A stretch of 64,000 nt of DNA, taken from contig CP131056.1 in NCBI GenBank assembly GCA_030657355.1, forward strand, positions 2,810,501 through 2,874,500, read 5' to 3'. Shown in pieces: positions 26,392-34,392 of this stretch; position 1 is the stretch's first letter; each line of letters starts with the position of its first letter. A model generated the notes under the pieces. It worked only from the letters and a program-made list of their open reading frames with translations, was not told the origin of the DNA and searched no databases. This DNA comes from Radicibacter daui (GTDB taxonomy: Bacteria; Pseudomonadota; Alphaproteobacteria; Radicibacterales; Radicibacteraceae). The translations under genes and the position numbers were made by a program.

Positions 26392-27858
26392 ATGACGACG
26401 TCTATCCGGTTTTTGCTGGGTGAAGAGCCCATGGAGATCAGCAGCGCCGATCCGACGATGACGGTGCTGCAATGGCTGCGCGGCCCCGGCGGGCGCTGCG
26501 GCACGAAGGAAGGCTGCGCCGAAGGTGACTGCGGCGCCTGCACCGTGGTGCTGGGCGAGCCGGGACAGGAAGACGGGACCGTGGCCTACCGCGCCGTCAA
26601 TGCCTGCATCCAGTTTGTGCCGACGCTCGATGGCAAGCAGCTGCTGACGGTGGAAGATCTGCGCGCGCCCTCCGGCGCGCTGCACCCGGCCCAGCAGGCG
26701 ATGGTGGACAAACATGGCAGCCAGTGCGGTTTCTGCACCCCCGGCTTCGTCATGTCGCTCTTCGAGATGTATGAGAAGGCAGACGCCGCGCCGGAAAACC
26801 CGGCCATCGAAGACCAGCTCACCGGCAATCTGTGCCGTTGCACCGGCTACCGGCCGATCATGGATGCGGCACGCGCCATGTATGCCTTGCCGCGCGAGAC
26901 CCGTTTTGCCGCGGCGCAGGGCCGTGTGGCCTCAGCACTCAAGGAACTGAAGCGCACCACCGGTCTTGATTACACCGCCGGGGGCCGGCAGTTCGTCGCA
27001 CCGGTGACGCTGGAAGAGATGGATGGTGCCCTCGCCGCTCACCCCGGCGCCACCCTGCTGGGCGGCGGCACGGATGTCGGCCTGTGGGTTACCAAGCAGC
27101 ACCGGGACCTGAAGACGCTTGTCTACACCGGCGCCTGCGCACCGCTGCATGCCATTACCACGCACAGCGATGGCAGCCTGAGCATCGGCGGCGGCGCCAG
27201 CCTGGCCCGCGCAGCGGAGGTGCTGGGTGCCTATCATCCCTCTCTCGCCATTTTGATGCGGCGCTTTGCTTCCAGCCAGATCCGCAATGCCGGCACACTC
27301 GGCGGCAATGTCGCCAATGGCTCGCCTATCGGCGACAGCATGCCGGCGCTACTGGCGCTGGGTGCCACGGTCACGCTGCGCTCGGCCCGCGGCAGCCGCA
27401 CCCTGCCACTGGCGGCCTTCTATCACGACTATATGAAGAACGACCGCGCCCCGGATGAGTATGTGGCCGCGATTGATGTGCCGCCGCTCGGGGGCCGGGT
27501 TTTTGCCACCTACAAGCTTTCCAAGCGCTTCGATCAGGATATCTCTGCTGTATGCGCCGCATTTGCGCTGACGCTGGAGGAAGGTGTGGTCAAGGAAGCG
27601 CGGCTGGCCTTCGGCGGCATGGCCGGCATTCCCAAACGCGCTGCCGGTGCCGAAGCCGCCCTTAAGGGGCGGGTTTTCGATGCCGACGCGCTCAAGGCGG
27701 CACTTGCTGCACTGGCGGAAGATTTCAGCCCGCTGTCGGACATGCGCGCCAGCGCCGCTTACCGTGCCCTTGCCGCTGCCAATCTGCTGCGCCGCTTCCA
27801 GCTGGAAGCAAGCGGCAGTGTGCCGGCAGCAGAGCTGGAGGTTTATGACTATGCCTGA
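26392..27858 (+). CDS. xdhA: Xanthine dehydrogenase small subunit (2Fe-2S and FAD)
   Basis: A 488-residue protein. The ATG at 26392 is chosen because the ferredoxin domain starts at [10 protein letters not shown]; the TTG at 26344 would add a charged, unrelated leader. The plant-type [2Fe-2S] cluster has Cys42, 47, 50 and 72; the second cluster has Cys112, 115, 148 and 150 (QCGFC and CRCTGYRP). The FAD domain follows ([27 protein letters not shown]), then the CO-dehydrogenase flavoprotein C-terminal domain. It passes electrons from the molybdenum site to NAD+ during hypoxanthine and xanthine oxidation to urate. Its end overlaps xdhB. Confidence 0.95.
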
Positions 27859-30193
27859 TACCAGCCTCAAGACCGCGGCGGTGCCCCAGCCGGCAAAAGG
27901 CCATGCCGGAACAGCCCACGCGCATGACAGCGCCGAGCGCCATGTGAGCGGCAGTGCCGTCTATATCGACGATATCCGCGAGGTTGCCGGCACCCTGCAT
28001 ATCGCCCCGGTGCTTTCCACCCGGGCACATGCCCGCATTCTCTCCGTCGACCTCTCCGGTGCCGAGGCGGTTCCGGGTTTCGTCACCGCCCTTACCCCGG
28101 CGGATGTACCGGGCGTCAATAATTTCGGCGCTGTGAAGCTCGACGATCCGATCATCGCCGAGGATCTGATCGAATTCTGGGGCCAGGTGGTGCTGGCGGT
28201 GGCCGGCGAGACGCTGGAAGCCGCACGCGCTGCCGCCCGGGCGGTGAAGATCACTTACGAGGATCTGGAGCCGATCCTTTCCATCGAGCGGGCGATCGAG
28301 CTCGACGCAACCGTCGCGCCGCCCCTCACCATGAAGTCCGGCGATGCGGCGGCGGCAATGGCGACGGCAAAACACCGGCTCTCCGGCACCTTCAATGTCG
28401 GCGGGCAGGACCATTTTTACCTTGAGGGGCACATCGCCTATGCGGTGCCGCAGGAAGAAGGCGATATGCTCGTCTATTCCTCCACCCAGCACCCGACCGA
28501 GGTTCAGCATCTTGTCTCGCGCTCGCTTGCCATTCCCGATCACGCGGTAACGGTAGAAGTCAGGCGCATGGGCGGCGGTTTTGGCGGCAAGGAAACCCAG
28601 CCGGCACAGATCGCGGCCATTGCCGCCCTCATCGCCCGCAAGACCGGGCGGCCGGCCAAACTGCGCCTCGACCGCGACGAGGACATGATCGCGACCGGCA
28701 AGCGCCACGACTTCCTAATCAAATATGAAGTCGGCTTTGACGATAGCGGGCGCATCGAGGCGCTTGCCATGGATCTGCATGCCCGCGCCGGTTATTCGAG
28801 CGACCTGACCAATGCGGTCGTCGACCGCGCGATGTTCCATGCCGGCAGCTGTTATTACCTGTCCAACGCCCGCATCACCGGCCACCGCAACAAGACCCAT
28901 ACCGTCTCCAACACCGCCTTTCGCGGGTTCGGCGGCCCGCAGGGTTATCTGGCCGGCGAGGAGGTGGTGGACGAGATCGCCCGCTATCTGGGCAAGGAGC
29001 CGCTTGAGGTCCGCAAGGTCAATTTCTACGACCGCGAGGGCGAGCGCACGCGCACCCATTACGGCCAGCCGGTAGAAGATTTCATCCTGCATGAGCTGGT
29101 GCCGGCTCTCGCCGAGCAGGCGGAGTATGACAAGCGCCGGGCAGAAGTGCGCGCCTTCAATGAAAAGAGCCCGGTGCTGAAGAAGGGCCTCTATCTGACA
29201 CCGGTACAGTTCGGCATCAGCTTCACGGCCACGCATTTCAACCAGGCCGGCGCGCTGGTGCATGTCTATTCCGACGGCTCGGTTATGCTGAACCATGGCG
29301 GCACCGAGATGGGCCAGGGGCTCTATCTCAAGGTCGCGCAGGTGGTGGCGCGCGAGTTCGGCATCGATGTCGCGCGGGTCAAGATCACCGCCACCAACAC
29401 CTCCAAGGTGCCCAACACCTCCGCCACCGCAGCATCCTCGGGCTCGGACCTCAATGGCATGGCGGCACAGGATGCGGCCCGCCAGATCAAGGAACGCCTT
29501 GTCGCCTTTGCTGCCGGGAAATATGGCTGCGCGCCGGAAGAGGTGCGGTTTGCCGACAACATGGTCGAAGCGGGCGCTGAGAAGATAAGCTTTGCCGCAC
29601 TTGCCAGGGCGGCCTACATGGCACGCACCCAGCTGAGCGCCGCCGGCTTTTACGCCACACCCAAAATCCACTGGAGCCGGGAGACGGCAAGCGGCCACCC
29701 CTTCTACTACTTCACTTATGGCGCGGCGGTGGCTGAGGTGATCGTGGATACGCTGACGGGCGAATACCGCCTGCTGCGCGCCGACCTGCTGCATGATGTC
29801 GGCCGCAGCCTCAATCCGGCCATCGATATCGGCCAGATCGAAGGCGCCTTTGTGCAAGGCACCGGCTGGCTTACCAGCGAGGAGCTATGGTGGGACAAGG
29901 CCGGGCGCCTGCGCACCCATGCCCCCAGCACCTACAAGATCCCGACGGTGCGCGACATCGCCCGCGATTTCCGCGTGACGCTCTATGAGAACGAGAATGT
30001 CGAGCCGACCATCCACCGCTCCAAGGCGGTGGGAGAGCCGCCCTTCCTGCTCGCCAATGCCGTTTTCTTCGCCCTGAAGGACGCTGTCGGCGCGGCCATC
30101 GGCTACAAGGGCAGCCCGAAGCTGGATGCCCCGGCCACGCCCGAGCAGGTGCTGATGGCGATAGAAGCATTGCGGCAGGCAACCGGACAGTAA
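27845..30193 (+). CDS. xdhB: Xanthine dehydrogenase large molybdopterin subunit
   Basis: About 782 residues, normal for XdhB. ATGs at 27845 and 27851 both fit; the first overlaps the xdhA stop. The molybdenum hydroxylase domains are intact: [12 protein letters not shown] at the start, [14 protein letters not shown], the molybdopterin loop [11 protein letters not shown], the FRGFGGPQG segment with the substrate-binding Arg, and the near-C-terminal [13 protein letters not shown] carrying the catalytic Glu in GEPP. It catalyses purine hydroxylation and needs a sulfurated Mo cofactor, likely supplied by the XdhC and NifS-like proteins encoded about 2.2 kb downstream. An SDR gene follows 73 bases later. 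Confidence 0.95.
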
Positions 30194-30266: not shown

Positions 30267-31046
30267 ATGCCGGTCGAAAAGCCACTTGCCATCGTCACCG
30301 GTGGCAGTACCGGCATCGGCCGGCAGATCGTGCTGACGCTGGCCGGCGCCGGCTGGGATGTCGCCTTCACCTACAAGGGCGCGGCAGCAGAGGCCGAAGA
30401 GACCGCGCGGACCGCCGAAGTGGCGGGTGCCGGGGTCTGGCAGGCTGAAAGCGATGTCGGCATCGCCGGCGAGGTCAATGACTTCCATGACGGCGTGCTG
30501 GAGAGGTTTGGCCGGGCGGCCGATCTGCTGGTCAACAATGCCGGGGTGCAGACCTGGGCGCCGCTGCTGGAGCTTGCCGAAGAAGACTGGGACCGGGTGA
30601 TCCGTACCAATCTCAAGGGCTGCTTTCTCAATACGCAGGCTGCGGCCCGCCGGCTGGTAGCAGCGAAAAAGGGCGGCGCGATTATCAATATCGGCTCCGG
30701 TAGCAACCGCATCGCCTTCCCGCGCCTTGTCGACTACACCGCCTCCAAGGGCGGTATCGAAATGTTCACCAAGGTGGCGGCGGCAGAACTCGGCGAACAT
30801 GGCATCCGCGTCAACTGCGTGGCGCCGGGCGCCATCGAGATTGAACGCACACGGCTTGAATCGCCGGATTATGCCGAGACCTGGGGCGCTATCACCCCGC
30901 TGCGGCGCGTTGGCCAGCCGCAGGATGTAGCCAGTGCGGTGCTGATGCTGGCCGGGCCTGAGGCGGGCTTCATCACCGGGCAGACCATCATGGTCGATGG
31001 CGGCCTTTTCTGCCTGCCCAACTGGCCCTACCGCCCCGGCCAATAG
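30267..31046 (+). CDS. Short-chain dehydrogenase/reductase (SDR) family oxidoreductase
   Basis: A 259-residue classical SDR. It has the NAD(P)-binding [11 protein letters not shown] near residue 11, [11 protein letters not shown], the catalytic Ser in INIGSGSN, and the YTASKGG motif with catalytic Tyr and Lys. The C-terminal [11 protein letters not shown] and [11 protein letters not shown] are typical of the FabG/glucose-dehydrogenase-like group. Substrate cannot be told. It is co-oriented with xdhB, 73 bases downstream and preceded by AAAGGGAGG, so it may be read with the xanthine dehydrogenase genes, but no purine-linked role is established for it. Confidence 0.9.
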
Positions 31047-31065: not shown

Positions 31066-31083
31066 GGCAGTTTGACAACTGCC
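31066..31083. promoter_or_regulatory. Inverted repeat and TTGACA box at the head of the DUF1127 leader, copy 1
   Basis: GGCAGTT-TGAC-AACTGCC is a perfect 7-bp palindrome and contains TTGACA (31072-31077), a consensus -35 box. No clear -10 box follows at 17 bases. Its palindromy is kept in copy 2, which suggests an operator or start-site control element. Confidence 0.5.
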
Positions 31084-31181
31084 TATCCCGGCATCATGGC
31101 AGCCATGCACCGCAAGCTTTGCTCTGCGTGCATGGTCCGCTGCAAAAGCCCCATGACTCCTCAAGGCCGAGTTCTGTCACC

Positions 31182-31290
31182 TTCTCCTCGTGAGCGGTTC
31201 ACGCCACCGGCAAGAGCCGGCAGACGTCGAGAACCCCGACTGTATGAACGCCGCGGCGCCCATGTGGACGACGCGCGAAACGAAGGAGAA
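31182..31290 (+). promoter_or_regulatory. Structured 5' leader that can mask the ribosome site, copy 1
   Basis: TTCTCCT at 31182-31188 is exactly complementary to AGGAGAA at 31284-31290, the Shine-Dalgarno region of the DUF1127 gene. Between them is a small hairpin, CCGGCAAGAGCCGG. Pairing would hide the ribosome site. A reading frame from ATG 31151 through the leader ends in the ATGA of the DUF1127 start. Confidence 0.45.
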
Positions 31291-31295
31291 AAGAG

Positions 31296-31517
31296 ATGAG
31301 CAAGGCTGTTGCTTCTCATGGTGTCGAGTTCGGTGTTGCCAACCGTTTCTTCGGCCTCGGCCAGATGGTCCGCAACCAGGTGAACGAGTTCGTCCGCCGC
31401 GCCCAGCTGCGCCGCGAACTGGAAAGCCTGAGCGCCCGTGAAATGTCCGACATGGGCATCTCCCCGGCTGACTTCGGCGCCATCGTCAACGGCTCCTGGC
31501 AGCGCGCTGCCCGCTAA
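31296..31517 (+). CDS. DUF1127 small protein, first paralogue
   Basis: A 73-residue basic protein. The C-terminal half is the DUF1127 domain: RRAQLRRELESLSAREMSDMG followed by ISPADFGAIVNGSW. Such small proteins are abundant in alphaproteobacteria; studied members such as CcaF1 of Rhodobacter bind RNA and are induced by stress. A strong AGGAGAA ribosome site lies seven bases upstream. It is preceded by a long conserved leader of over 200 bases and followed by its own terminator, so it is an independent transcription unit inside the xanthine dehydrogenase region. It is about 89 percent identical to the second copy by my count. Confidence 0.9.
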   Translation: MSKAVASHGVEFGVANRFFGLGQMVRNQVNEFVRRAQLRRELESLSAREMSDMGISPADFGAIVNGSWQRAAR

Positions 31518-31584
31518 GCCTCGGTAAAGACCAGCCGCCCAACGATGAGGCTGGCTGGTCGGCGGACGCCGGACGATGAAAAAC

Positions 31585-31630
31585 AAAGGGCCCCGTGGCG
31601 CTAGCGCAGCGCCGGGGCCCTTTCTTATTT
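31585..31630 (+). terminator. Rho-independent terminator, DUF1127 copy 1
   Basis: AAAGGGCCCC (31585-31594) pairs with GGGGCCCTTT (31614-31623); an inner GGCGC/GCGCC stem extends it. CTTATTT follows. Confidence 0.85.
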
Positions 31631-31752
31631 TGCACCGCAGCGTAAGCCGCCTGGGTTCCTCGACACCTGTGTCAACCTTCCCGTTGCTGTCAGCCAGTGA
31701 CCCTACTGAGCGCAGAAATCCGGGAAAACCGCACCTCGTGCTCATTATGGCA

Positions 31753-31768
31753 GCAGTTTGAAAACTGC
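31753..31768. promoter_or_regulatory. Inverted repeat at the head of the DUF1127 leader, copy 2
   Basis: GCAGTTT-GA-AAACTGC, a perfect 7-bp palindrome with a TTGAAA box, occupies the same place as the copy 1 palindrome. One base differs at the centre (GACA to GAAA), which creates a matching T-A pair and preserves symmetry. Confidence 0.5.
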
Positions 31769-31867
31769 CCATACTGTCAGCATGGCAGCCATGCGCTCCG
31801 AGCTTTGCTCTCCATGCATACTGCACTGCAAAAGCTCCATGACTCCTCATGGCCGAGTTCTGTCACA

Positions 31868-31977
31868 TTCTCCTCGTGAGCGGTTCACGCCACCGGCAAG
31901 GGCCGGCAGACGTCGAGAACCCCGACAGGATGAACGCCGCGGCGCCCGATGTGGACGACGCGCTAATGCAAGGAGAA
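31868..31977 (+). promoter_or_regulatory. Structured 5' leader that can mask the ribosome site, copy 2
   Basis: TTCTCCT (31868-31874) can pair with AGGAGAA (31971-31977), repeating the arrangement of copy 1, again with an inner CCGGCAAGGGCCGG hairpin. Confidence 0.45.
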
Positions 31978-31982
31978 AAGAG

Positions 31983-32204
31983 ATGAGCAAGGCTGTTGCT
32001 TCTCGTGGTGTTGATTTCCCGGTTGCCAACCGTTTCTTCGGCCTCGGCCAGATGGTCCGCAATCAGGTCAACGAATTCACCCGCCGCGCCCAGCTGCGCC
32101 GCGAGCTGGAGAGCCTGAGCGCTCGCGAAATGTCCGACATGGGCATCTCCCCGGCTGACTTCAACGCCATCATCAACGGCACCTGGCAGCGCGCCGGTCG
32201 CTAA
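31983..32204 (+). CDS. DUF1127 small protein, second paralogue
   Basis: A 73-residue near copy of the protein at 31296. The DUF1127 part is almost identical; changes are conservative (for example HGVEFG to RGVDFP at residues 8-13, FGAIVNGSW to FNAIINGTW). The start at 31983 is chosen because it matches copy 1 and has AGGAGAA seven bases upstream. The frame stays open upstream to an ATG at 31758, giving a possible 148-residue form. It has its own leader and terminator, so the two paralogues can be controlled separately. Retention of both intact suggests dosage or different conditions of expression. Confidence 0.9.
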   Translation: MSKAVASRGVDFPVANRFFGLGQMVRNQVNEFTRRAQLRRELESLSAREMSDMGISPADFNAIINGTWQRAGR

Positions 32205-32274
32205 GCCTCACGGGAAGGCCCAGCCACCCGTTGATGAGGATGGCTGGCCGGTGAGTGCAGGATGACGGAAGATC

Positions 32275-32318
32275 AAAGGGCCCCATGGCGCCAGCGCGGC
32301 GCCGGGGCCCTTTCTTGT
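32275..32318 (+). terminator. Rho-independent terminator, DUF1127 copy 2
   Basis: AAAGGGCCCC (32275-32284) pairs with GGGGCCCTTT (32304-32313), followed by CTTGTTT; the same structure as copy 1. Confidence 0.85.
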
Positions 32319-32435
32319 TTCTGCACCCCGGCAGGCTGCTGACGGCCTTTCCGGCATATGGGAGCGGCGCTTGACGCCGCCATCACCGAACGCCGAAACT
32401 CCGCCCGGAAACACCGTCGTCACGTATTTCGGGGC

Positions 32436-33230
32436 TTGTCTATTTTGCGCAGCTGGATCGATTCCCTCGCGGCGCTGCGCAATGCGCGGCAGGCAGCGGT
32501 GCTGGTAACCGTCGCCCGGGTTGCTGGCTCCACCCCGCGAGAGGCCGGTGCCAAGATGGTGTTCGGCCCGGACGGCAAGGCGCATGGCACCATCGGCGGC
32601 GGCCAGCTGGAAAAACGCGCCGAGGCCGAAGCCGCCCGGCTGATTGCCGAAGGCAGCGCCACGCCGGTTTTCATCGATATTCCTCTTGGGCCGGAAATCG
32701 CCCAGTGCTGCGGCGGCCATGTCACGCTGCTGCTGGAGCCCTTCCCCGCCCCGCGCGCCGCGCTGCTGTTGTTCGGCGCCGGCCATGTCGGGCGCGAACT
32801 GGTGGAGGTGCTGGGTGGCCTGCCGGTGCCGGTGCGCTGGATTGACCCCCGCGCGGAGGAATTTCCGCAGAGCCTGCCCGCCAACACCGAAAAAAGCCTG
32901 ACAGATGCCCCGCTTGCCGAAATCGCCGCGGCACCGCCGGGCAGCCTGGTTGCCATCATGACCCATAGCCATGACCTCGACCTTGAGCTGGTGGAAGCGG
33001 CGCTGAAGCGCGAAGACATGCCCTATGTCGGGCTGATCGGCTCGCGCACCAAACGCGCCCGCTTCGAGGCACGTCTCAAGGCGCGCGGCATCGATGAGGT
33101 GGCGCTGGAGCGGCTGGTCTGCCCCATCGGCGCCGGACACAAGACCGGAAAACATCCGCGCGAGATCGCCATTTCCATTGCAGCCGAGCTGCTGGAGCGC
33201 GGCCTGACCGTGGCCGCCAATGCCGGCTGA
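32436..33230 (+). CDS. xdhC: Xanthine dehydrogenase accessory protein XdhC
   Basis: About 264 residues. The start is uncertain: TTG at 32436 or TTG at 32445 (ten bases after GGGG) fit the domain start LRSWIDSLAALR; an in-frame ATG at 32358 would add unlikely residues. The two XdhC/CoxI domains are clear: AVLVTVARVAGSTPREAGAKM with GTIGGGQLE, and QCCGGHVTLLLEPF, then a Rossmann-like FGAGHVGRELVEVL and YVGLIGSRTKRARF, ending CPIGAGHKTGKHPREIAISIAAEL. XdhC binds the molybdenum cofactor and delivers its sulfurated form to XdhB. It overlaps the following cysteine desulfurase gene by 11 bases. Confidence 0.9.
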   Translation: MSILRSWIDSLAALRNARQAAVLVTVARVAGSTPREAGAKMVFGPDGKAHGTIGGGQLEKRAEAEAARLIAEGSATPVFIDIPLGPEIAQCCGGHVTLLLEPFPAPRAALLLFGAGHVGRELVEVLGGLPVPVRWIDPRAEEFPQSLPANTEKSLTDAPLAEIAAAPPGSLVAIMTHSHDLDLELVEAALKREDMPYVGLIGSRTKRARFEARLKARGIDEVALERLVCPIGAGHKTGKHPREIAISIAAELLERGLTVAANAG

Positions 33231-34392
33231 GCCTGAAGCAGGCACCGGTCAGCCGGTCTTTCTCGACCATCAGGCAACCACACCGCTCGACCCGCGGGTG
33301 CTGGACGCCATGCTACCCTTCTTCAAGGACCGTTTCGGCAACCCGCATTCCACCACCAACCGCCCCGGCCTTGCCGCCCGCGCGGCGCTGACAGCGGCAA
33401 GGGCCGAAATCGGAACCCTGATCGGAGTAGCGGGAGAAACCATCCTGCTGACCTCCGGCGGTACCGAGGCCAATAATCAGGCCATCCTCGGCCTGCCCGC
33501 CGCCGCGGGGCGTGACCGCCTCGCCATCAGCGCCTTCGAGCATCCCAGTGTCAGCGAAGCCGCCCGGCGCAGCGGCCTCACAGTCGATATCCTGCCGGTC
33601 ACCGCAGACGGTTTTGTCAATCTGGAGGCCGCAGCCCGGCTGATTGGTCCACGCACACGGCTCGTCAGCGTCATGGCGGCCAATAACGAGATCGGCACGA
33701 TCCAGCCGCTTGCCGGGATTGCCGCCCTCGCGCGCAGCGCCGGCGCGCTGATGCATAGCGATGCCTCGCAGGCGGTTGCCGGCATGGCGCTGGATGCCCC
33801 GGCCCTCGGGCTCGATCTGGTTACGCTCTGCGCCCACAAGATTTACGGGCCTGCCGGTATCGGCGCGCTCTATATCCGCCCGGCACCGCCTCTTGGGCTC
33901 CAGCCCCTTCTGCACGGCGGCAGCCAGCAGGGCGCTTTGCGCCCCGGTACGGTGCCTGTCGCGCTGGCCGCAGGGTTCGGAGAAGCCGCCCGGCTGATGC
34001 GCCTTGAGGGGCCCGGCGAATGGCCCCGCCTTGCGGCGCTGCGCGACCGGCTATTGACGCGTCTTTCCGGTGCCCTTGAGGGAGTGAGCGTCAACGGGGG
34101 CGTAGCTCCGCGCCTGCCCGGCAACCTTAACCTCACCATTGCCGGTATCGACGCCGAAATTCTGCTGCTGGAGCTCATGGACACGGTTTCCGCCTCCACC
34201 GGCTCAGCCTGCGCCGATGCCGCCGGCAAACCGAGCCCCAGCCTCAAGGCCATCGGGCTCGACGCCGCCCGGATCAGCGTCAGCCTGCGCCTCGGCATTG
34301 GCCGCTTTACCCGCGAAGCTGATATCGACCGCGCGGCCGATGCCCTGATCGGCGCCATCAAAAAGCAGCGCAGCCCGCTGGCAACATTATGA
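33220..34392 (+). CDS. Cysteine desulfurase, NifS4-like
   Basis: A 390-residue PLP-dependent class V aminotransferase-fold enzyme. It begins FLDHQATTPLD; the PLP-binding Lys207 is in LCAHKIYGPAGIG and the persulfide-carrying Cys331 is in SASTGSACAD. It shows no IscU or Suf partners. Instead it overlaps xdhC by 11 bases. In Rhodobacter capsulatus, NifS4 transfers sulfur to the molybdenum cofactor held by XdhC, so the same job is likely here: sulfuration for xanthine dehydrogenase rather than general Fe-S assembly. A NUDIX gene follows 13 bases later. Confidence 0.88.
   Translation: MPAEPEAGTGQPVFLDHQATTPLDPRVLDAMLPFFKDRFGNPHSTTNRPGLAARAALTAARAEIGTLIGVAGETILLTSGGTEANNQAILGLPAAAGRDRLAISAFEHPSVSEAARRSGLTVDILPVTADGFVNLEAAARLIGPRTRLVSVMAANNEIGTIQPLAGIAALARSAGALMHSDASQAVAGMALDAPALGLDLVTLCAHKIYGPAGIGALYIRPAPPLGLQPLLHGGSQQGALRPGTVPVALAAGFGEAARLMRLEGPGEWPRLAALRDRLLTRLSGALEGVSVNGGVAPRLPGNLNLTIAGIDAEILLLELMDTVSASTGSACADAAGKPSPSLKAIGLDAARISVSLRLGIGRFTREADIDRAADALIGAIKKQRSPLATL

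Follow-up and report, generated by a model that had tools for sequence, protein, structure and literature searches.

A duplicated, constrained leader of two tandem DUF1127 genes in Radicibacter daui contains an exact complement of the ribosome site and possibly masks it

Leaders that control translation by means of anti-Shine-Dalgarno (anti-SD) and anti-anti-SD elements are a general class. Among the RNAs linked to DUF1127 genes, the CcsR RNAs lie downstream of ccaF1 in its transcript and have CUCCU as their working motif, a CUCCU-type motif being located in a hairpin loop. An RpoH-type promoter and processing by RNase E are further traits of these RNAs. According to excerpts of the published account, the CcsR RNAs of R. 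sphaeroides are made as part of a precursor transcript that also carries ccaF1 and are released from it by cleavage, and CcaF1 is a DUF1127 RNA-binding protein that acts on the CcsR RNAs (PMC10253847). A different mode of control is described for the leader of S. meliloti duf1127_1, which, in the excerpted report, mediates uORF-dependent transcription attenuation; in the model given there, the uORF's own ribosome site pairs with C-rich codons, resulting in a premature, probably Rho-dependent transcription stop (PMC12218461). Our literature searches retrieved no paper that joins DUF1127 with an RNA thermometer and none with the phrase 'CUCCU motif'; the matches for CcsR / CUCCUCCC were uninformative, and the match for DUF1127 together with anti-Shine-Dalgarno concerns, by its abstract, RapZ/GlmZ.

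The window analysed here, a stretch of 64,000 nucleotides of the R. daui genome (contig CP131056.1, positions 2,810,501 to 2,874,500), encompasses a tandem pair of DUF1127 genes, denoted A and B, with 89% identical protein products and coding sequences that are identical at 200 of 222 nucleotides. Each gene is preceded by a conserved leader in which the following elements are recognizable (window coordinates):

31150-31295, plus strand: copy A leader, conserved block and putative 5' UTR, identical to copy B in 136 of 147 alignment columns
31182-31188, plus strand: copy A UUCUCCU, the anti-ribosome-site arm, exact complement of 31284-31290
31189-31203, plus strand: copy A inverted repeat CGTGA-GCGGT-TCACG, adjoining the arm (from sequence)
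31207-31220, plus strand: copy A hairpin CCGGC-AAGA-GCCGG (from sequence), four pairs of which are in the consensus fold
31229-31233, plus strand: copy A GAGAA, a possible competitor for the UUCUC of the arm, predicted to be its partner before the ribosome site is made, with a probability of about 0 in the full leader
31284-31290, plus strand: copy A AGGAGAA, the ribosome site before ATG 31296 (from sequence)
31296-31517, plus strand: copy A DUF1127 gene, 73 aa, PF06568 at 28.5 bits against a curated cut-off of 23.3
31836-31982, plus strand: copy B leader, conserved block and putative 5' UTR, identical to copy A in 136 of 147 columns
31868-31874, plus strand: copy B UUCUCCU, the anti-ribosome-site arm, exact complement of 31971-31977
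31875-31889, plus strand: copy B inverted repeat CGTGA-GCGGT-TCACG, adjoining the arm (from sequence)
31893-31906, plus strand: copy B hairpin CCGGC-AAGG-GCCGG (from sequence), four pairs of which are in the consensus fold
31915-31919, plus strand: copy B GAGAA, a possible competitor for the UUCUC of the arm, which is predicted to pair mainly with it in 9 of the 15 stretches folded
31971-31977, plus strand: copy B AGGAGAA, the ribosome site before ATG 31983 (from sequence)
31983-32204, plus strand: copy B DUF1127 gene, 73 aa, PF06568 at 28.8 bits against a curated cut-off of 23.3

The sequence-only reading of this window had noted that, in both copies, TTCTCCT is exactly complementary to the AGGAGAA located about 96 bases further on, with a CCGGC/GCCGG hairpin in between. 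Both observations are confirmed, the spacing between the arm and the ribosome site being 95 nt in copy A and 96 nt in copy B. At the very start of the block, copy B additionally contains a perfect hairpin, CCATGA-CTCC-TCATGG (31837-31852), the copy A counterpart of which (31151-31166) has one A-A mismatch.

With the anti-SD/anti-anti-SD leaders, the locus has in common a three-part complementarity that involves the ribosome site, UUCUCCU and GAGAA; unlike in those leaders, there is no recognised ligand-binding core here, no Rfam match in the window at gathering score and, in the genomes searched, no conservation seen beyond the two paralogues. The likeness to the CcaF1-CcsR/cuckoo RNA system at the CIN1 locus of Rhodobacter consists in a small DUF1127 protein, of 71 aa there and 73 aa here, and in CUCCU motifs that, as in CcsR, would share the transcript of the gene provided that transcription covers the leader. 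The two differ in the position of the motif: on the plus strand between 31000 and 32400, CTCCT occurs at 31157, 31184, 31493, 31843 and 31870, so that, apart from the occurrence inside gene A (31493), it is found only upstream of the genes, whereas the CcsR RNAs lie downstream; downstream of the two stop codons, CTCCT is absent as far as the terminator-like hairpin and on to the next leader or position 32400. The link to CUCCU-type small RNAs of Rhodobacter, which had been suggested from the sequence alone, thus does not match in position. With regard to a hairpin loop, copy B has CTCC in the loop of CCATGA-CTCC-TCATGG, the copy A counterpart of this hairpin has the one mismatch, and UUCUCCU is predicted to be in a helix rather than in a loop. 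The features shared with S. meliloti duf1127_1, as far as the excerpted report describes it, are the DUF1127 gene itself, the long leader and a ribosome site that pairs with C-rich leader sequence (PMC12218461). Unlike in S. meliloti, the partner of the arm here is the gene's own ribosome site, and the reading frames in the leader are not conserved.

The 7-nt complement is unusual but not striking, and exceeds the chance expectation only moderately. When the upstream sequence was shuffled (n = 300), a complement of at least 7 nt to the ribosome site appeared in 2.0% of the cases for copy A and in 6.3% for copy B. In 464 kb of the same genome, such a complement accompanies 15 of the 284 genes with a detectable SD (11.0 expected) and 5 of the 116 genes with an SD of at least 5 nt (4.7 expected). 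Within the window, 3 of the 14 AGGAG-ATG sites have a complement, A and B among them, and TTCTCCT occurs 8 times on the two strands compared to 4.4 expected, a count of 8 or more being reached in 10 of 100 shuffles. A genome search identified ten DUF1127 genes in the source genome, and none of the other eight has a complement of 7 nt or longer in its leader; the leader type itself is confined to A and B within this genome (BLAST, E 0.001, either strand). Because the two leaders represent one duplicated element, the occurrence of the complement in both counts as a single observation.

Judging from the comparison of the two copies, the leader is constrained. The copies disagree in 11 of 147 leader columns, compared to 18 of 93 further upstream (Fisher p 0.008) and 19 of 65 in the 3' spacer that separates the stop codon from the terminator-like hairpin (p 0.00007), so that the leader is kept about as well as the coding sequence; third codon positions differ in 12 of 74 cases (p 0.06 for the comparison with the leader). 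A young duplication with patchy divergence may be part of this apparent constraint. Both arms are intact in both copies, and three bases just 5' of the ribosome site, one position off, have changed. Among the leader codons that changed ahead of a 1-nt indel between the copies, 1 of 5, 0 of 4 and 2 of 5 are synonymous in the three frames, respectively; the indel shifts the reading frame, and in the third frame, which contains an in-frame TGA, it alters one further codon, the sixth to be changed. Given that the altered codons are mostly nonsynonymous, that the indel shifts the frame and that no SD-like sequence (AGGA-, GGAG- or GAGG-like, within 20 nt) precedes the ATGs examined at 31153, 31839 and 31849, a conserved reading frame, on this comparison, does not explain the constraint.

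In the predicted folds, the ribosome site of copy A is closed throughout: the probability of pairing between the arm and the site is 0.85-0.90 in all 15 stretches folded. For copy B, the same probability varies from 0.00 to 0.95 over 15 stretches, depending on where the stretch begins and ends. In 9 of these, the arm is predicted to pair mainly with the GAGAA at 31915-31919. The unpaired fraction of the ribosome site is 0.71-0.89 in 5 of the 15, each of which ends at +40 or +60, and 0.06-0.34 in those that extend to +100. The predicted fold of copy B is, accordingly, not robust. None of the 200 shuffled leaders was as closed as copy A in either of two stretches, and 3 of 200 and 0 of 200 were as closed as copy B; all the stretches in this test end at +20, and those in which copy B opens are longer. 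Against the background of the genome, closure is common: the SD is predicted to be as closed as that of copy A in 62-64 of 284 genes, and, depending on the stretch, the opening cost is as high as in copy A for 13-87 and as high as in copy B for 31-281 of the 284 genes.

In one short stretch folded, the 7-bp helix is extended by 3 bp in both copies, with different partner columns. Covariation, which had been proposed as a check on the fold, amounts to 0 of 44 pairs of the consensus fold changed on both sides, a count that derives from two sequences only given that no wider set of homologous leaders was found in the collections searched (see below). The substitutions between A and B break 5 pairs in each copy's own best fold, compared to means of 4.6 and 5.0 for random substitutions, and among the broken pairs are all 3 that extend the helix in A and 2 of those in B. 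The fold energies are mostly ordinary: for 8 stretches, z lies between -2.04 and +0.84, and the minimum, found for the shortest copy A stretch, was matched by 6 of 200 shuffles. With the arm and the ribosome site kept and the interior shuffled, pairing at a probability of at least 0.8 was retained in 87% (short stretch) and 77% (long stretch) of the cases for copy A, and in 83% and 19%, respectively, for copy B; in the long stretch of copy B, the arm was off the ribosome site (probability of 0.2 or less) in 58% of the interior shuffles. The interior thus seems to contribute little to the closure of copy A, and GAGAA appears dispensable for the departure of the arm from the ribosome site in the long stretch of copy B, since so many shuffles behave likewise, which implies that sequence outside the interior, beside GAGAA, helps set the outcome for this copy. 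Taken as predicted, structure would account for the constraint on the leader only in part.

The rival pairing of the arm with GAGAA is a possible second state of the leader. In calculations with forced states, the GAGAA state lies above the closed state by 5.4 to 8.7 kcal/mol in copy A, and ranges from 5.4 below to 6.8 kcal/mol above it in copy B. We also folded the leader as a growing chain, each fold representing the equilibrium at the given length and not kinetics. When the chain starts at -145, GAGAA is the partner of the arm as long as the ribosome site is still missing, with a probability of 0.90-0.99 (A) and 0.66-1.0 (B); when it starts at -130, the ranges are 0.28-0.98 (A) and 0.26-1.0 (B). 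Once the ribosome site is complete, the arm of copy A flips to it with a probability of at least 0.9, and copy B remains mixed. Comparable early pairing with GAGAA-like sequences is reached by 5-22 of 200 shuffles, and for this reason we consider the early pairing only suggestive.

The reading that we favor, tentatively and with a probability of about 0.4, is that the two leaders are a duplicated, constrained and lineage-restricted 5' UTR that would lower the translation of DUF1127 through masking of the ribosome site by UUCUCCU. The complement and the lower divergence of the leader are read directly from the sequence, and the folds are calculated. During synthesis of the leader, the arm could pair first with the internal GAGAA, which may leave the ribosome site accessible on its first emergence and masked later; copy A would then settle in the masked form, and for copy B the prediction is a balanced or an open state, according to the stretch used for folding. 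Three elements of this reading are inferred: transcription of the leader over this length, masking inside the cell and a consequence for expression. Of the RNA switch that had been envisaged on inspection of the sequence, the complement in both copies, the constraint on the leader, the predicted closure of copy A in 15 of 15 stretches and the possible second state with GAGAA stand, whereas the random-like breakage of pairs by the A/B substitutions and the non-robust fold of copy B speak against it. A switch and a constant damping of translation are equally likely, and no trigger was identified. Masking of this sort would be a known kind of leader. If the leader does mask its own ribosome site, translational control in cis would be added to the attenuation described, in the excerpted report, for S. 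meliloti (PMC12218461). With A and B, nature provides a ready test of how a small number of substitutions in a leader resets translation. A bolder variant, to which we assign a low probability, is a leader with two states and no known relative: the arm chooses between the ribosome site and its GAGAA mimic, the gene is translatable only briefly after synthesis, and substitutions subsequent to the duplication have set A closed and B open or balanced, resulting in opposite default translation of two near-identical DUF1127 proteins.

Nearly as likely as masking is that the complement arose by coincidence and was copied with the duplication, with the ribosome site working normally and the leader kept for another reason, such as an RNA-binding site, a small RNA derived from the 5' UTR, the stability of the mRNA or the uneven pace at which a young duplicate diverges. 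The frequency of 7-nt complements in shuffles (2-6%) and among genes (15 of 284), the non-robust fold of copy B, the mostly ordinary fold energies, the failure of substitutions to spare the predicted structure and the rarity of complements of at least 6 nt among the nearest DUF1127 relatives (2 of 19 measured) are all what such a coincidence would produce; it does not readily produce a ribosome site closed beyond leader shuffles (0 of 200 for A) or two arms that stay intact next to three changed bases just upstream of the site. Far less probable than either is that translation of the leader controls the gene, be it that a ribosome passing through the arm opens the ribosome site or that attenuation occurs as in S. 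meliloti duf1127_1. The excerpted S. meliloti report provides a precedent for control of a DUF1127 gene by a leader ORF (PMC12218461), and open frames do run through each leader, from ATG 31153 in copy A (48 aa) and from ATG 31849 in copy B (45 aa), each ending in a TGA that overlaps the DUF1127 ATG. However, the frames differ between the copies (copy A has AAG in place of ATG 31849, and ATG 31839 shares the frame of its own gene), the 1-nt indel and the mostly amino acid-changing codon substitutions argue against a conserved product, and, among ATG starts, the three examined lack an SD-like sequence; leader translation as a control element, another suggestion of the sequence-only reading, is accordingly disfavored by the lack of frame conservation.

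Action of CUCCU in trans, with the leader either bound by or giving rise to a CUCCU-type small RNA, or else autoregulation by the DUF1127 protein, also appears unlikely. Each leader contains two CTCCT (31157 and 31184; 31843 and 31870), the first of which in copy B overlaps the loop of CCATGA-CTCC-TCATGG, and CcaF1 is, in the excerpted account, a precedent for a DUF1127 RNA-binding protein that acts on such RNAs (PMC10253847). These similarities are set against the absence of CTCCT between the stop codon and the terminator-like hairpin in both copies, the A-A mismatch in the copy A hairpin, the lack of any other similar place in the genome (leader BLAST, E 0.001) and the lack of an Rfam match. 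An RNA thermometer is very improbable. The copy A ribosome site is predicted to be paired at 37 C, and in one long stretch of copy B the unpaired fraction, 0.53 at 10 C, reaches 0.89 at 37 C and 0.92 at 45 C, but this stretch is mostly open already at 20 C (0.73), the short stretch of copy B changes only from 0.02 to 0.11 between 10 and 60 C, and copy A goes from 0.08 to 0.14 over the same range in both stretches folded. Control by temperature, as once proposed for these leaders, is therefore at odds with the prediction for copy A, which speaks against a thermometer that melts in both copies. Over all these alternatives, modest control of translation through masking of the ribosome site by the arm remains the most likely function, closely followed by coincidence.

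We then considered how widely such leaders occur. BLAST with leader B found no match in 57 other genomes of the class. A covariance model built from both copies gave two matches in 384 other genomes of the class (E 0.043 and 0.049), under stricter filters that lose some weak matches; both were rejected given that no DUF1127 gene was seen nearby and that, by eye, they lie inside other genes. The protein had no match at E 1e-6 in the same number of other genomes of the class (384) and no confirmed one in the genome_contigs and viral_contigs collections. The leader pattern was absent from viral_contigs and matched twice in genome_contigs, in a Myxococcales bin and in a Nitrospirales bin, the latter with AGGAGA 57 nt after the pattern start; we regard both as chance matches, with no DUF1127-like protein recognizable by eye in 900 nt translated on the matched strand. 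Plasmids yielded no match by protein or DNA. Thus, no convincing homologous leader was detected among the genomes, contigs and plasmids searched, collections that may omit records very near the source genome.

DUF1127 genes as such are common, being present in at least 96 of 241 sampled genomes of the class, often several per genome. From the matches listed in this class-wide search, 140 leaders were fetched and 128 measured, 12 having been dropped (3 not located and 9 without an SD). Among these 128 leaders from the matches listed, 21 have a complement of at least 6 nt, compared to about 10.5 expected from shuffles (Poisson p 0.003), and the controls within the same leaders gave 14 for the direct sequence, 8 for the reversed one and 11 for the complement without reversal. 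Split by set, again within the matches listed, the counts are 13 of 72 against 5.7 and 8 of 56 against 4.8 (p 0.11), and complements of at least 7 nt number 6 against 3.3 expected (p 0.12). In the 21 leaders from the matches listed, the loops are scattered between 13 and 141 nt, and, when these leaders are folded from -140, the pairing is part of the best fold in 6 of the 21. At most, these sequence counts point to a weak tendency of DUF1127 leaders to carry an anti-ribosome-site arm, and do not demonstrate a shared mechanism. Of the 24 nearest relatives found by protein, 19 were measured (2 were not located and 3 had no start with an SD), and the 2 leaders with a complement of at least 6 nt mentioned above belong to this set. 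Another genome of the class contains two adjacent, weakly similar DUF1127-like genes (G015:C6:307863-308307, L219 and L233); the leader of the second gene, the only one measured, is without a complement of at least 4 nt.

The DUF1127 pair is flanked by an SDR gene on one side and an xdhC-like gene on the other, within a xanthine-dehydrogenase-like neighbourhood (27584-30193, 30267-31046, 32358-33230 and 33220-34392) with a molybdopterin-binding subunit, an SDR, an XdhC-like protein and a class-V aminotransferase as the products. No promoter was identified for the pair: a scan with the sigma-70 consensus gave two sites, both on the minus strand and none on the plus strand. Upstream of each leader there is an inverted repeat, GGCAGTT-TGAC-AACTGCC at 31066-31083 in copy A and GCAGTTT-GA-AAACTGC at 31753-31768 in copy B, followed on the 3' side, in both copies, by the palindrome CATGGC-A-GCCATG; the repeat and the palindrome together might represent operator or promoter architecture. 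At their 3' ends (31518-31625 and 32205-32316), both copies contain a GGGCCCC...GGGGCCC hairpin followed by a T-rich tract, which is absent from the scan output and looks terminator-like by eye, and, in the alignment of the two copies, this hairpin is preceded by a CCAGCC/GGCTGG stem-loop.
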